Source: a virus. Taken from it: 46,049 bases of DNA. The stretch spans positions 1-46,049 of IMG/VR virus record IMGVR_UViG_3300020214_002111. One strand, given 5' to 3'. The first letter of the stretch is position 1; the number at the start of each line of letters is the position of its first letter. The notes below the pieces were generated by a model, which was not told the DNA's origin, searched no databases, and saw nothing but the letters and a program-made list of their open reading frames with translations. Positions 36,081 to 41,400 of the stretch are shown here, piece by piece. The position numbers and the translations under genes were made by a program.

Positions 36081-36272
36081 ATGCACAATGATAGTCTCAA
36101 AAGTCATATTGAACACTTGGAAGAATCGCACAGCTACCTAGATCATAAACTTATACAAATGGAAAAACAGCGCCAATACGACAGCACTGAAGCCAGAGAT
36201 CTGCGGAAAAAGAAACTGCTGATCAAGGATGAACTATACTGGTGTAGACAAAAACTCAATAAGATATTATAA
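36081..36272 (+). CDS. YdcH-like (DUF465 family) small coiled protein
   Basis: This 63-residue protein consists of two helices with a heptad pattern: SLKSHIEHLEESHSYLDHKL, then RDLRKKKLLIKDELYWCRQK. The HxxLDxxI-like first helix and the LKKKKLxIKDEI-like second helix match the YdcH/DUF465 family, which is widely found in Proteobacteria and of unknown function. It starts three bases after the previous stop, with AAGGAT upstream. It ends seven bases before the gp47 ATG. As a helical hairpin it may bind another protein of this run. Confidence 0.7.
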   Translation: MHNDSLKSHIEHLEESHSYLDHKLIQMEKQRQYDSTEARDLRKKKLLIKDELYWCRQKLNKIL

Positions 36273-36279
36273 TAGACCA

Positions 36280-37302
36280 ATGACTCATGCATTTAAAAAG
36301 GCGGTTTGCTTCACAGATGTTCATTTTGGTTTAAGGAATAACAGTCGAAGCCACAACGACGACTGCGAAAACTTCATTAAATGGATGACTACCGAGGCCA
36401 AGAAGGAAGAAGCAGAAACCTGTTTCTTTCTTGGAGATTGGCATAATAATCGTTCGGCAGTCAATGTCAGCACTCTGAATTATACTTGTTCAAATATCAA
36501 GTACCTTTCAGAAAACTTTGAAAAGGTATATTTGATTATGGGTAACCACGATCTTGCCTATAGAGAAAAACGAGAGATCAACAGTCTACCTTTTGCCAAA
36601 CTTCTCAAAAATGTTAGCCTCATTGACGAAATTACAACCATTGGTGATATTACCATTGTGCCATGGTTAGTTGGCGACGAATGGGAAAAAATGAAACATC
36701 TTAAGAGTCGTTATGTATTTGGACACTTTGAACTGCCTCATTTTAAAATGAATGCCATGGTTGATATGCCCGACCATGGTGGACTTAATGCCAGTCACTT
36801 TCCTAATCAAGAATTGGTGTTTTCGGGTCACTTTCACAAGCGTCAGCAAAAGGACAATGTAATCTACATAGGCAATTGCTTCCCGCATAACTATGCCGAT
36901 GCTGGGGATGATGAGCGGGGCTGCATGTTTCTAAAATGGGGAGGAAAGCCTGATTTTCGTAACTGGCCAAGCGCACCAAAGTTTAGAACATTGACCTTAA
37001 CCGAGGCCATTGACAAACACGAAAGTCTCTTTGACACACAGACTTTTGCTCGTGTTACTATTGATATAGATGTTAGCTTTGAAGAAGCTTCTTATATCAA
37101 AGAACAATGGATCAATACCTATGGCATGCGCGAACTAAGTCTTATTCCTACCAAAAAGGAAGAGCATAGCACAGAATGGACTGGCGGAGAATTACAGTTT
37201 GAAAGTGTTGATGCTATTGTGTTGAATCAAATTCAAGCCATTGACTCGGATGTGATTGACCGTCAAGTATTGACACAGATTTACCAAGGACTTACACATT
37301 GA
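36280..37302 (+). CDS. gp47: Recombination endonuclease subunit gp47 (Mre11/SbcD-like)
   Basis: This 340-residue calcineurin-type phosphoesterase has, in order, FTDVHFG (about 11-17), GDWHNN, MGNHDLAY, FGHFELP and SGHFHKRQ, the complete metal-binding motif set of Mre11/SbcD nucleases. With gp46 it resects DNA ends for recombination-dependent replication in T4. Length matches T4 gp47 (339). The start chosen is the ATG at 36280; an earlier reading from 36229 would run through the end of the YdcH-like gene. Its stop overlaps the gp46 start as TTGA. Confidence 0.94.
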   Translation: MTHAFKKAVCFTDVHFGLRNNSRSHNDDCENFIKWMTTEAKKEEAETCFFLGDWHNNRSAVNVSTLNYTCSNIKYLSENFEKVYLIMGNHDLAYREKREINSLPFAKLLKNVSLIDEITTIGDITIVPWLVGDEWEKMKHLKSRYVFGHFELPHFKMNAMVDMPDHGGLNASHFPNQELVFSGHFHKRQQKDNVIYIGNCFPHNYADAGDDERGCMFLKWGGKPDFRNWPSAPKFRTLTLTEAIDKHESLFDTQTFARVTIDIDVSFEEASYIKEQWINTYGMRELSLIPTKKEEHSTEWTGGELQFESVDAIVLNQIQAIDSDVIDRQVLTQIYQGLTH

Positions 37303-39077
37303 TTCAATTTAAAAATTTGACAATTAAGAATTTTCTTTCGGTAGGTAATGTTACCCAAGGCCTACGCATGGATCAGCATGGGCTTACTCTAGTATTGGGT
37401 AATAATCTAGACCTTGGTGGTGATGGCGCTAGAAACGGTGTTGGCAAGACCACCATTGTCAATGCATTGAGCTATGCTATTTTTGGTTCTGCATTAACAA
37501 ACATTCGCAAAGAAAACTTAATTAACAAGACGAATGGTAAGAATATGTTGGTCACTGTGGGATTTGAAAAGAACGGCAACAAGTATATCATTGAACGAGG
37601 ACGCAAGCCCAATTTGTTGCGATTCATTGTTGATGATCGCGAAGTCAATGAGGCTGGCACCGACGAAGGCGCAGGTGAAAACCGCATAACGCAGGAAGCT
37701 ATTGATCGCGTGGTTGGTATGAGTGCTGAACTGTTCAAGCACCTTGTTGCTCTTAACACTTATACCCAACCTTTTTTAAGCCTAAGAGCGAATGAACAAA
37801 GAGATATCATTGAAGAGCTGTTAGGTATTACTTTACTCAGTGAAAAAGCTGAGATTTTAAGAGAGCAAGTCAAGGTTACCAAAGAATCAATTAGAGATGA
37901 AGAAACCAAGATTAAGACTCTTCAAGAAAGTAACAGTAGAATTCAAACCACCATTGACGACCTTGAGCGACGCAGTCGTACCTGGGCCGCAAAGAAAATC
38001 ACAGACATGACTGAACTCAATGGTGTTATTGAAGAATTAGAATCCACCGACATCGAAGCCGAGTTAGAGGCTCATCGTGCTTTGGCTCTTTATAAGGAAA
38101 ACGAAAATCGCCTAAAGTTAGCCAATAAAGAACTAGCAACAAGACAAAGCAATGTAAAAAAATTACAAGAAACATTGGCACTGTCGCAAAAAAATCTAGC
38201 TGAAATTGTTGAGCATCGCTGTCCAAGTTGCGGACAAGATATACATGATCAACAACATGAAAAGATGACAGCAACTGTTCAAGAAAGCATTGATAAAACC
38301 ATTGCTACCCTCAAAGAAGAACATGGCTTTTTGGCTCTGTCTAATATTGCGGTGAAAGCCATTGGAGAACTGGGCAGCAGGCCCATAACTAAATACCTGG
38401 AAGTTGAAGATGCTGCGGCTCACAAAAATCACTTGGATCATTTGAGGCAACAACTAGTTAACAAAGATGCCGAACAGGATCCTTACCAAGAACAAATTTC
38501 TACTTTGAAAAATACTGCTTTGGCTGAAATTAGCTGGGACGAAGTGAATCGTTTAGGTAAATTGCTCGAACACCAAGATTTCTTGCTCAAACTGCTAACA
38601 AGCAAGGATTCATTTGTCCGAAAACGCATTATTGAGCAAAATCTGGCGTATTTGAACCATAGACTAGGCTATTACTTAGATAAATTACAATTACCACATC
38701 AGGTTTCTTTTAGAAGCGACCTCGAAGTTGATATTAGCCAACTTGGACAAAGCTTTGATTTTGACAACCTGAGTCGAGGAGAACGAAATCGATTAATTCT
38801 AGCATTGAGCTGGAGTTTTAGAGATGTATATGAAAGCTTTACTGAACCCATGAATCTACTGTTTGTCGACGAGCTTGTAGATTCTGGTATGGACCAAATT
38901 GGTATTGAAAATGCCATGGCTGTACTCAAAGCCATGGGTCGTGAAATGAACCGTAATATCTTTTTAATTAGCCACAGAGACGAGTTGGCCAGTAGAGTCA
39001 ACAGTGTCTTGTCCGTAATTAAAGAAAATGGGTTCACCATGCTGGACACAGATGTACAAATACATGAAATCAACTAA
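37299..39077 (+). CDS. gp46: Recombination endonuclease subunit gp46 (Rad50/SbcC-like ATPase)
   Basis: This 592-residue SMC-like ATPase has a Walker A motif GARNGVGKTT at residues 43-52, long coiled-coil arms, a zinc hook C308-P-S-C311 at the tip of the coil, an ABC signature NLSRGERNR and Walker B LLFVDELVDS. Length is close to T4 gp46 (560). It pairs with gp47 to process DNA ends. The start is TTG at 37299, overlapping the gp47 stop (TTGA). No ATG lies near enough to keep the first strand (IQFKNLTIKNF), so the TTG is well supported. Coupled translation would keep the subunits balanced. Confidence 0.95.
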   Translation: MIQFKNLTIKNFLSVGNVTQGLRMDQHGLTLVLGNNLDLGGDGARNGVGKTTIVNALSYAIFGSALTNIRKENLINKTNGKNMLVTVGFEKNGNKYIIERGRKPNLLRFIVDDREVNEAGTDEGAGENRITQEAIDRVVGMSAELFKHLVALNTYTQPFLSLRANEQRDIIEELLGITLLSEKAEILREQVKVTKESIRDEETKIKTLQESNSRIQTTIDDLERRSRTWAAKKITDMTELNGVIEELESTDIEAELEAHRALALYKENENRLKLANKELATRQSNVKKLQETLALSQKNLAEIVEHRCPSCGQDIHDQQHEKMTATVQESIDKTIATLKEEHGFLALSNIAVKAIGELGSRPITKYLEVEDAAAHKNHLDHLRQQLVNKDAEQDPYQEQISTLKNTALAEISWDEVNRLGKLLEHQDFLLKLLTSKDSFVRKRIIEQNLAYLNHRLGYYLDKLQLPHQVSFRSDLEVDISQLGQSFDFDNLSRGERNRLILALSWSFRDVYESFTEPMNLLFVDELVDSGMDQIGIENAMAVLKAMGREMNRNIFLISHRDELASRVNSVLSVIKENGFTMLDTDVQIHEIN

Positions 39078-39274: not shown

Positions 39275-39702
39275 TGACATGGCTGTACCAAGGTTCTGTT
39301 GTTGACACCCTGCCTGAAGATTGCGTGGGATTTGTTTATATTATTCAGAACACAATTACTGGTCGCAAATACATAGGCAAGAAACTGGCAAAATTTTCCA
39401 AGACAACTTATAAAACTATAAAACTCAAAAACGGAACTAAAAAAAAGAAAAGAATTCGAAGCAAAATTAATAGCGACTGGCAAGAATATTGGTCTAGTTC
39501 GGACGAACTTAAAAAAGATATAGAACTCTTAGGCAAAGAAAAATTTATTCGAGAAATTTTACACTATTGCAAAAGCAAATCTGCTTGTAGCTATCTTGAG
39601 GCCCAAGAACAATTTGCTAGAAAAGTACTTGAATCATTAGACTACTACAATCATTACATACAAGTGAGAGTCCACGGTTCTCACATATTAGGCAAACTGT
39701 AA
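39274..39702 (+). CDS. GIY-YIG-type nuclease-like protein
   Basis: This 142-residue protein carries GFVYIIQNTITGRKYIGKKL; VYI at about 21-23 and YIG at 33-35 correspond to the GIY and YIG strands. A basic stretch (KNGTKKKKRIRSK) follows, then SDWQEYWSSSDELKKDIELL and REILHYCKSKSACSYLEAQ with a glutamate in the expected region. Related proteins are common in T4-like aquatic phages, annotated as Seg-like or homing-type endonucleases. Catalytic Tyr, Arg and Glu seem present but were not verified by alignment. It is immediately followed by the long noncoding region, so a link between the two is possible. Confidence 0.7.
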   Translation: MTWLYQGSVVDTLPEDCVGFVYIIQNTITGRKYIGKKLAKFSKTTYKTIKLKNGTKKKKRIRSKINSDWQEYWSSSDELKKDIELLGKEKFIREILHYCKSKSACSYLEAQEQFARKVLESLDYYNHYIQVRVHGSHILGKL

Positions 39703-40290
39703 CTCACCCCGGCACTGCTGCGTAAACCGCAAACTATAAAAGGCTTTTTATTACTACCGATAAGCCTGTGTCGGCTGGTTAATAGACACCCATAAAACCT
39801 GGCACTTGGGTTGCACAGGGGAAGGAACACCTGACGCGGTAGCAGGGACTTGACTGCCACTATCCTTGACAGGACGCAATTCACGGTATGAAAAGAATTG
39901 GCACAAGTATACGATGACTAAAAAGAGTAGGCTCTGGTGAACAATTACAACCTACAGTATTATGCAAGCAGATTGGATTGCTTTCATAATATGCGTTATA
40001 CAAGACAGGCGTCAAAGGGTACCGCGTAACCGCCCTGACTGGAAACAGTTGCTTAATCCAATGTGACATGGGGTCTGAGTCAAGATCAAATGTTTTTCTT
40101 AGCCGGTAAAACGGCTAAGTGTGACTGGTAAATCTAAGTCAAGAAATCATATGTAGTTCATATGATTCATGATTAAACAAATTTAAATTGTTTCTAGATT
40201 AATCACTCTAAGTCTATAAAATCTGAATGAGTAGAGCGAAGCGATACGAAATTCAAGGGCGATGAAATCGCCCTGTTAAGATAACACACT
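39703..40290 (+). ncRNA. Candidate large structured noncoding RNA
   Basis: These 588 bases hold no credible gene; the two minus-strand frames here (67 and 62 codons) have no family resemblance. They are full of complementary segments. Hairpins: 39798-39804 with 39812-39819; 39927-39931 with 39951-39955; 39958-39964 with 39985-39991, extended by 39966-39970 with 39979-39983; 40011-40019 with 40033-40039; a GAAA-capped stem at 40038-40049; 40098-40105 with 40112-40119; 40146-40153 with 40159-40166. Possible pseudoknots: 39741-39746/39762-39767 with 39757-39760/39771-39774, and loop ATTGGAT (39972-39978) with ATCCAAT (40056-40062), seven perfect pairs. Strand is not proven; GAAA on the plus strand and the upstream plus genes favour plus. 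Classes of similar size in phages are GOLLD and ROOL; I could not assign either. Confidence 0.6.
40256..40274. terminator. Hairpin at the convergent junction, possible terminator
   Basis: AGGGCGAT and ATCGCCCT form a perfect eight-base stem around a GAA loop. It lies between the candidate RNA (plus) and the small minus gene ending at 40292. No clear T-run follows on the plus strand; on minus, TTGAATTTCG follows. It may end transcripts from either side or form the 3' end of the RNA. Confidence 0.55.
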
Positions 40291-40291
40291 G

Positions 40292-40519
40292 TTAGAATCG
40301 AGCTCTGGCAAAACCCTTCCTACCGTAATAGGCTTCGGTTTTTTCCTTAACAGCTTCGCTGAGTATCTGTCTTTCAAGGAAGCTCATGGCCCAAATCTCA
40401 TTGATGCTGATGGAACTCCAGATACTCAATGTTGATATTTCTTTGATTAAGGCCCTTGCCTCGTTTTCTATACTGTCCACAAACTGACGGATTTTTTTAC
40501 CGTCAGTACCAAGTGTCAA
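40292..40519 (-). CDS. Small helical protein downstream of gp26, possible hub-assembly factor
   Basis: This 75-residue protein is helical (KKIRQFVDSIENEARALIKE), with ISINEIWAMSFLERQILSEA resembling the short helix pairs of tail assembly chaperones. It starts at a TTG (40517-40519) that overlaps the gp26 stop as TTGA, the same junction as gp47/gp46. T4 has gp26 and gp51 as baseplate hub assembly proteins; being tied to gp26 suggests a hub assembly role, though no direct match to gp51 was seen. There is no ATG in its first 44 codons, so the TTG is needed. Confidence 0.6.
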   Translation of the reverse strand: MTLGTDGKKIRQFVDSIENEARALIKEISTLSIWSSISINEIWAMSFLERQILSEAVKEKTEAYYGRKGFARARF

Positions 40520-41400
40520 GAGCCTACGGCGAAAAAACTTGTAGGATCAAACAGCATATCTGATTTGTATTCTTTTTGACAATAATCACATTTAACATTG
40601 ATTTCGCGTGTAATACCAAAGGTTCCAAACTTTTTAAGTTCTTGGTCTAATCGCTCGTTACTAGCCCTGTCAAGATTCTTGACCCAATCATAAATGTGAG
40701 CATAATTTGTTACCTGTGTGCCGTCGGGCAGCGTTACTGACAAGATGCTCTGTGACAGTGTTTCTTGACTAAGGTCTACCAAAGCCGCATAGCCCTTGTT
40801 GGCCACTTCGGCCTTTTGATCTACTGTGGAATTTTCTTTGGCTTCTAAAGCCTGTAGTTGGCGCATGGTAACAAACTGTTGTTTCAGCAAGCGACTTTGG
40901 GCCTCTAAGGTATAAGGTTTGAGTTCAACCTTGATACCGCTGCTTAAAGTAACTTTGCCAATCTCTTCACTAATAGGCTTTAGTGTGGCCAAAATACTGC
41001 CCAAACTAACCGTAATACTTTGTGTTTTACCATTACTAGCATCACATTGGTGTGCCACATCCAACGACAAGTCGTCGCCGTAGCTGGCCATACGCATTGA
41101 CACAAGAACGGCATCAATATCAGGCGCCGGCATTTCGTTGACATCTTTAATGTCTGGCACAACGCTGGACAGCACATACCTCAGTGCTTCGCCATTGAGC
41201 AACGAATCTGGGTTTTTGAGAACCATTTCATCTTTAGCAGTCATTGGATAAACTGCTAACTCGTTGTTTTCAGACAGTTTGGGTGGATTCTTATAAAAAC
41301 GGCCACCGGACGGTAGCTCAATGTAGTTGCCAGGCCTGCGATAGAATTGGCTCAGTGGGTTTGGTACCAATGGCTTTTTAAGTGGGTTTTGATTATCCAT
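40516..41400 (-). CDS. gp26: Baseplate hub protein gp26-like (T4_baseplate family)
   Basis: This 294-residue protein has the family pattern of gp26: YIELPSGGRFY, ELAVYPMTAKDEMVLKNPDS and LLNGEALRYVLSSVVPDI, then VSMRMASYGDDLSLDV, with CDYCQK as a C-terminal Cys pair. T4 gp26 is about 208 residues. It is a hub component or assembly factor and may bind the tape measure protein. It has a late-type box (41450-41457) about 50 bases upstream, and it is divergent from the tape-measure-like gene, so hub and tape measure parts are probably made at the same time. Confidence 0.85.
   Translation of the reverse strand: MDNQNPLKKPLVPNPLSQFYRRPGNYIELPSGGRFYKNPPKLSENNELAVYPMTAKDEMVLKNPDSLLNGEALRYVLSSVVPDIKDVNEMPAPDIDAVLVSMRMASYGDDLSLDVAHQCDASNGKTQSITVSLGSILATLKPISEEIGKVTLSSGIKVELKPYTLEAQSRLLKQQFVTMRQLQALEAKENSTVDQKAEVANKGYAALVDLSQETLSQSILSVTLPDGTQVTNYAHIYDWVKNLDRASNERLDQELKKFGTFGITREINVKCDYCQKEYKSDMLFDPTSFFAVGS

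Follow-up and report, generated by a model that had tools for sequence, protein, structure and literature searches.

A large structured phage RNA with the Polynucleobacter-1 motif as its 5′ part and two direct repeats that change in step

Results

Genomic setting

The window analysed here is the whole virus record IMGVR_UViG_3300020214_002111 of IMG/VR (46,049 bases), in which an earlier note had singled out the 588 bases at 39703-40290 as a gene-free region and a candidate large structured RNA (Table 1). The region is preceded by SbcD/gp47-like and SbcC/gp46-like genes, a small histone H1-like ORF and a gene for a GIY-YIG endonuclease-domain protein of the SegE type. This last gene matches its Pfam family with 106.9 bits (cut-off 25) and its PHROG with E 1.5e-35, and the 142-aa product is approximately a bare GIY-YIG domain with little else. 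A small ORF resembling the 61-aa Hc1 ORF of the window is recurrent in many relatives. The flanks converge, as had been described, with the GIY-YIG gene ending at 39702 on the plus strand and a minus-strand ORF ending at 40292. Nor is there a sign of coding in the core, where the longest stop-free run in 80 relatives has a mean of 69 aa, against 68 aa in shuffled sequences.

This arrangement is widely kept. The GIY-YIG gene was found on the same strand in 92 of the 99 loci that were collected by the RNA pattern alone, and 6 of the others do not have it despite containing enough sequence. The gap between gene and RNA has a median of 22 nt and is at most 100 nt in 106 of 121 full-length cases. 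Upstream, the relatives carry SbcC/gp46-like genes as well as small histone-like and radical-SAM-like ones (the latter two kinds being partly assigned by eye), and the next gene downstream of the RNA is convergent in 83 of 126 phage loci. As for copy number, ten of 12 long contigs contain exactly one match to the Rfam family described below and two contain none. According to this, the RNA probably follows the GIY-YIG gene as the last element of a gp47-gp46 operon and is transcribed together with it or just behind it, its near-constant close position and the convergent next gene making co-transcription with the GIY-YIG gene likely. A T4 late promoter (TATAAATA) was found upstream of the RNA in none of 155 loci.

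Table 1. Genes and RNA features around the gene-free region (window coordinates)
Feature	Position	Strand	Remarks
SbcD/gp47-like and SbcC/gp46-like genes	36229-39077		Upstream of the gene-free region
Histone H1-like Hc1 ORF, 61 aa	39089-39274		Between gp46 and GIY-YIG gene; PF07432, 41.8 bits
GIY-YIG endonuclease-domain gene, SegE type, 142 aa	39274-39702	+	PF19835, PHROG 447; directly upstream of the RNA
Full RNA extent (inferred)	39750-40275	+	5′ end from PKA, 3′ end from P13
PKA, 5′ strand CUACCG	39754-39759	+	Pairs with 39837-39842; helix 1
RF01718 Polynucleobacter-1 domain (P1 to P4)	39763-39908	+	cmscan 84.7 bits, gathering score 37
PKB	39763-39776	+	AGCC 39763-39766 with GGCU 39773-39776; helix 2, interleaved with P1
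P1	39768-39772 with 39785-39789	+	Helix 3
PKA, 3′ strand CGGUAG	39837-39842	+	In the P3 loop; pairs with 39754-39759
P7 hairpin	39958-39991	+	Loop holds AUUGGAU 39972-39978; complementarity 10.83, at most 6.29 permuted
PK2, 5′ strand AUUGGAU	39972-39978	+	Pairs with 40056-40062; helix 12
P8	39995-39999 with 40026-40030	+	Helix 13, 99.5% of cells paired; crosses P9 and P10
P9	40007-40010 with 40051-40054	+	Helix 14, 90.9% of cells paired
P10	40017-40019 with 40033-40035	+	Helix 15, 100% of cells paired
PK2, 3′ strand AUCCAAU	40056-40062	+	Pairs with 39972-39978
R1 core AGUCAAGA	40078-40085	+	Within 40063-40088
P11 hairpin CUUAGCCG/CGGCUAAG	40098-40119	+	Between the repeats; helix 16, 98% of cells paired
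R2 core AGUCAAGA	40137-40144	+	Within 40121-40150
3′ element	40225-40273	+	P12 stem with GAGC..GCGA 40225-40254, P13 hairpin 40257-40273; z = -4.0
ORF	40292-40519	-	Converges on the gene-free region
Baseplate-hub gene	40516-41400	-	Beyond the 40292-40519 ORF

Extent and identity of the RNA

When the whole window was compared with Rfam 15, a single match exceeded threshold, RF01718 (Polynucleobacter-1), which covers positions 1-141 of the 141 of the model and 146 window bases; at permissive thresholds the scan added just a sub-threshold DUF805b (E up to 5). The earlier note had proposed a member of a GOLLD- or ROOL-like class or else a new class, and had recommended an Infernal comparison with GOLLD, ROOL and group I and II introns. 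As RF01718 alone passed the threshold, the RNA is none of these by sequence-structure search, and the suggestion of a new class is also partly mistaken, since a motif already on record accounts for the 5′ 146 bases. Polynucleobacter-1 was described in 2010 as probably RNA and probably cis-regulatory (marked "y" in the corresponding column of the table of that work), from Burkholderiales and fresh or estuarine water (PMC2864571). In the literature searched, no later work on it was found.

Relatives were gathered from the uncultured phages of IMG/VR by three routes (the motif pattern, the baseplate-hub neighbour and the GIY-YIG neighbour). By iterated nhmmer (E < 1e-5), a core of ~390 nt (window 39751-40146) was found in 176 loci representing 148 distinct sequences, some of them partial. 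Behind this core, within 180 nt, the sequence motif GAG[CT]..[GA]CGA is present in 128 of 156 loci, compared with 3 of 156 shuffled tails; it sits in a stem, usually followed by the last hairpin. The core and the conserved 3′ motif together delimit an RNA at about 39750-40275, so of the 588 bases this part holds as RNA, and 39703-39749 is mostly spacer. From these sequence comparisons, the RNA has a length of ~525 nt, with inferred ends, RF01718 is only its 5′ third, and many phages have homologues that extend along its length. It is thus almost certain that this stretch of the window codes for a large structured RNA in which RF01718 forms the 5′ part.

Searches in other collections were negative. 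By blastn, the window RNA and the type 1, 2 and 3 RNAs (see below) matched none of 50,697 phage records, and one chromosomal copy matched none of 72,556 plasmid records. The phage Melnitz and the Variovorax phage V45v66, the nearest cultured phages by their GIY-YIG protein, carry neither the RNA nor its module near that gene, and in a pattern scan of genome contigs none of the matches listed (at least 120) was convincing as RNA by score.

Secondary structure and covariation

The 588-base region folds at -165.7 kcal/mol (z = -3.55), and none of 100 shuffles was as good. On an alignment of 80 non-redundant sequences we wrote a structure model of 59 pairs including four pseudoknots (PKA, PKB, PK2, and P8 crossing P9 and P10). 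In this model, 94.0% of cells are paired compared with 80.5% in shuffles, and with 34-42% when partners are slid by 1-3 columns; as the model was read from the same sequences, this comparison leans its way, and the double changes are stronger evidence. Both sides have changed in 43 of the 59 pairs (33.4 in shuffles), the cells with double changes number 629 (172 in shuffles), and the covariation score is 0.408 (0.177 in shuffles), with none of 500 shuffles reaching any of the model values. The comparison of homologues thus shows an RNA structure under selection, and the candidate structured RNA of the earlier note is borne out by fold, homology and covariation alike.

For PKA, PKB, PK2, P8, P9 and P7 the model agrees with permutation tests of the complementarity between strands, PKA itself scoring 6.74 where 2000 permutations gave 5.03 at most. 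The P1-P4 helices of RF01718 (helices 3-11 of our model) keep pairing through compensatory change, and helices 2 and 3 (PKB and P1) are paired in 90% and 95% of cells, respectively. The Rfam model does not include the PKA 5′ strand, any part of PK2, or P8-P10. PK2 is the pseudoknot that had been noticed between ATTGGAT and ATCCAAT: all 7 of its pairs change on both sides, 87.5% of cells pair in the 80 relatives, and 70 of the 80 sequences have the 7-mer in the apical hairpin loop. The GAAA-capped hairpin was likewise located (ACTG-GAAA-CAGT, 40038-40049). A second pseudoknot, drawn at 39741-39774, is not the conserved one, and PKA and PKB use that stretch instead. At the 3′ end, P13 has no U-run and is therefore not called a terminator.

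Two direct repeats that change in step

The repeats R1 and R2 are direct repeats on either side of the P11 hairpin, and in the main type their layout is CUC-N7-G for R1 and UCU-N7-A for R2, with identical N7 in both. Among the 71,253 column pairs of a 102-sequence alignment, the strongest covariation (E 3e-5) does not come from a base pair but from two R1/R2 columns that keep identical letters (AA/GG/CC). The R1/R2 columns covary as identical letters (AA/GG/CC; UU/AA/GG) with E-values of 3e-5 to 3e-3, which come from our own tree-based null and not from R-scape. The longest string common to R1 and R2 has a mean of 7.1 nt within a sequence and of 4.8 nt when repeats are swapped between phages. 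A map that takes the shared string as its anchor, and is hence biased towards identity, gives offsets 0, 1 and 4 as fully shared, 6 in 97%, 8 in 76% and -5 in 72%. When the repeats were anchored independently (by ACTC before R1 and TCT before R2, in 68 sequences), the whole 7-mers were equal in 64 of the 68, with 13 alleles between phages, and 66-67 of the 68 sequences agreed at offsets 0, 1, 4 and 6. Mapped on a tree built from the remainder of the RNA, the letter at offset 0 shows 21 changes in R1, 22 in R2 and 22 jointly, ~21 of these changes being concerted. Some concerted changes may reflect exchange of the entire 3′ module by recombination; the independent mutations would then be fewer, and the rule that R1 equals R2 would be unaffected. 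At the level of sequence, each phage has the same 7-mer in both repeats, and from one phage to another the two copies change together.

The letters in front of the 7-mers (CUC before R1, UCU before R2) are kept in 68 of 79 rows; in the clade of the window itself they are not kept as in the main type. The expression CTC-N7 followed by TCT and the same N7 gave 119 matches within the RNAs and 25 elsewhere (1.8 Mb, both strands), and 7 of these 25 are type 3 RNAs. The repeats show no clear excess of unpaired bases over the sequence around them. In the fold predicted for the window (40060-40150), AGUCA of the R2 tag is paired to the UGACU that belongs to its GUGAC box, a pairing not open to most other tags. 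Separately, the baseplate-hub gene contains on the minus strand, at 40757-40775, the sequence CTTAGTCAAGAAA, close to R2 (CTAAGTCAAGAAA); this is one case and could be chance.

Sister types and chromosomal copies

The same 3′ layout was also found with other 5′ parts. In 17 GIY-YIG loci (type 2; among them L165, L199, L208, L179, L205, L172, L174, L175 and L146, with L197 cut by the contig end) the 3′ part alone of the profile matches, and what precedes the shared 3′ module is a different 5′ part (GACACTGTG...CCCATTGAGG...) instead of the Polynucleobacter-1 domain. Type 3 comprises seven loci (L137, L139, L173, L180, L182, L192 and L212) that the profile missed and that have the same 3′ layout, immediately after the GIY-YIG gene or up to ~600 nt downstream of it. 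Their tag is invariant (ACATGAA in 7 of 7 loci), in contrast to the variable tags of types 1 and 2. The type 2 and type 3 loci submitted to Rfam gave no match.

Matches to RF01718 are also present in bacterial genomes, 4 of 399 of one order and 14 of 151 genomes (~2 Mb) of one genus, taken as Polynucleobacter. It was these order- and genus-level searches that found the chromosomal copies, whereas a family-level search around Castellaniella found none. In these Burkholderiales the copies lie between divergent or downstream genes, the RNA standing between a divergent DUF6641 gene and a gene for a 188-aa tyrosine recombinase, and the stretches carry further integrase genes and an AAA ATPase. Loci L414-L419 (genomes G744, G640, G692, G761 and G675) show DUF6641, the 188-aa tyrosine recombinase, the AAA ATPase and ~423-aa integrases, the latter on both sides of the copy in G761. 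As candidate partners of the 7-mer, we looked for the DUF6641 or recombinase genes of the chromosomal copies in phages with negative results. The twin-tag layout is common to types 2 and 3 and the chromosomal copies, and a shared tag of at least 7 letters in this layout is present in 15 of 20 chromosomal loci. Locus L396 shares AGCGATG with other flanking letters, the tags are unequal in three copies (L403, L408 and L411), and L412 is cut off. In genome G744, two copies separated by 18 kb bear tags that differ (AGAGAAAG and AGCGAAAG). A TAAATAA sequence, possibly a promoter element, is found ~30-100 nt upstream of the RNA in L393, L394, L395, L396, L401, L402, L407 and L410.

Search for a partner of the tags

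Within the RNA, no complement of the 7-mer was found at any constant position. The 7-mer was not enriched genome-wide in eight long phage contigs, and in the 8 phage genomes its complement did not occur beyond chance near the starts of orthologous genes or inside them; with eight genomes and five alleles, these searches have low power. The 7-mer shows no covariation with the GIY-YIG codons, and no recurrent complement was found within ~1.5 kb of the chromosomal copies. The two different tags in genome G744 disfavor a single shared host partner.

Two other readings of the repeats were dropped. In programmed translational bypassing, as in gene 60 of T4, matched codons surround a hairpin. Such a reading of R1/R2 does not fit, there being no open frame and many 7-mers without an in-frame stop. 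The GATAAT of some tags resembles a -10 promoter element, which other alleles (AGTCAAG, AGCGAAA) do not fit.

Discussion

In this work we have described an RNA whose 5′ 146 bases match the whole 141-nt Polynucleobacter-1 model and whose occurrence agrees with the 2010 table as regards Burkholderiales and fresh water (PMC2864571). It is, however, ~3.7 times longer than that motif, with pseudoknots and a 3′ half absent from the model, and it is carried by many phages, where it does not look cis-regulatory. The extension of RF01718, the sister types and, most notably, the concerted direct repeats are absent from the Rfam match and the papers found.

Among known large RNAs, GOLLD is also large, pseudoknotted and found in phages or prophages, with a conserved 3′ part and a variable 5′ part (PMC12286853, PMC7567579), but the window RNA has no Rfam match to it, is shorter and has no tRNA gene in the window. 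ROOL is similar in its size, its several pseudoknots and its presence in phages and prophages (PMC12286853). It differs in anatomy, and again no Rfam match was obtained. To our knowledge, concerted direct repeats such as those of the window RNA appear in no description of GOLLD, and we know of no described RNA family that has them as a hallmark. The lytic phage ICP1 produces an abundant ncRNA of ~800 nt from a likewise gene-free region (PMC7567579), and the twin-tag module is absent from both strands of that region.

The RNA very probably acts as a stand-alone RNA. As the tags change in step from phage to phage, they may well serve as a paired recognition code. We picture a phage noncoding RNA of ~525 nt that would be expressed with the GIY-YIG gene or just behind it, and whose pseudoknotted body would present two copies of one short recognition sequence on the flanks of P11. 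Both tags would bind the same partner, be it RNA, DNA or protein, from the same phage or element; with such a common partner, partner and both tags must change together, and the 7-mer would be the address keeping the RNA of each phage specific to itself. That the tags bind a common partner, making this a trans-acting RNA with an element-specific address, seems to us plausible, if a little short of an even chance. More tentatively, we propose that phages and integrative elements share a class of RNA that may be defined by such a twin address, that is, two identical, fast-switching 7-8-mers flanking a hairpin at a position that is constant across three 5′ architectures, used as an element-specific recognition code. 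As the partner of such an address, one may consider a nucleic acid encoded by the element, a self-templating step (a strand copied from one repeat having to pair with the second), or even homo-base-pairing of the two repeats directly.

An assembly made of RNA only, a homo-oligomer or cage like those of GOLLD and ROOL in which pseudoknots and repeats would serve assembly instead of partner binding, would agree with the size, the several pseudoknots, the phage- or prophage-like location and the conserved 3′ part with exchangeable 5′ parts, all of which resemble GOLLD (PMC12286853). The known quaternary contacts of such RNAs are complementary kissing loops or A-minor contacts (PMC12286853), and complementary kissing leaves identical direct repeats unexplained; as GOLLD and ROOL were also unmatched in the Rfam search, we consider this reading unlikely.

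The identity of the 7-mers could also be a functionless by-product of slippage or gene conversion between the repeats. Template switching is classically seen at direct repeats with a hairpin between them, and the near-identical copies L401 and L407 differ by single concerted changes. However, the outer letters before R1 and R2 are kept different in most rows, which argues against copying tracts of random length, since these would erase them, so that such an origin appears decidedly unlikely.

That the RNA is a cis-regulatory element controlling a neighbouring gene was rated probable by the authors of the motif (PMC2864571), and the chromosomal copies do adjoin the divergent DUF6641 gene and the tyrosine recombinase. 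We nevertheless regard it as improbable, because in phages the RNA stands 3′ of a gene and mostly faces a convergent one, the neighbours are not the same in phages and chromosomes, and a 500-nt RNA with multiple pseudoknots and its own 3′ hairpin would be an unusual leader.

The IscB/TnpB omega-RNAs are structured RNAs adjoining a small nuclease gene, with a long guide as the variable part. By analogy, the RNA could be the guide or cofactor of the adjacent GIY-YIG nuclease, as the near-constant adjacency (92 of 99 loci, median gap 22 nt) and the near absence of anything beyond the GIY-YIG domain in the 142-aa protein would allow. The nuclease fold is, however, another one, the variable part is a twin 7-mer that shows no covariation with the nuclease, the chromosomal copies have no GIY-YIG gene nearby, and the same gene family is present in phages without the RNA, all of which makes this role very improbable. 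Finally, the decayed mobile intron (group I or II, or another mobile ribozyme) that the earlier note had considered because of the GIY-YIG gene is scarcely credible, as no Rfam intron matched, no gene is interrupted between two complete convergent ORFs, and the RNA is intact, conserved and usually present once per genome (exactly one match in 10 of 12 long contigs, none in 2) behind that gene at an operon end.

The concerted repeats are an experimental handle for which we know of no counterpart in GOLLD- and ROOL-like RNAs, and would make the role of large phage RNAs directly testable. Two sister types unmatched by Rfam are added, and the 141-nt orphan motif of 2010 is extended to a large phage RNA of which it forms the 5′ third and whose anatomy is open to test.
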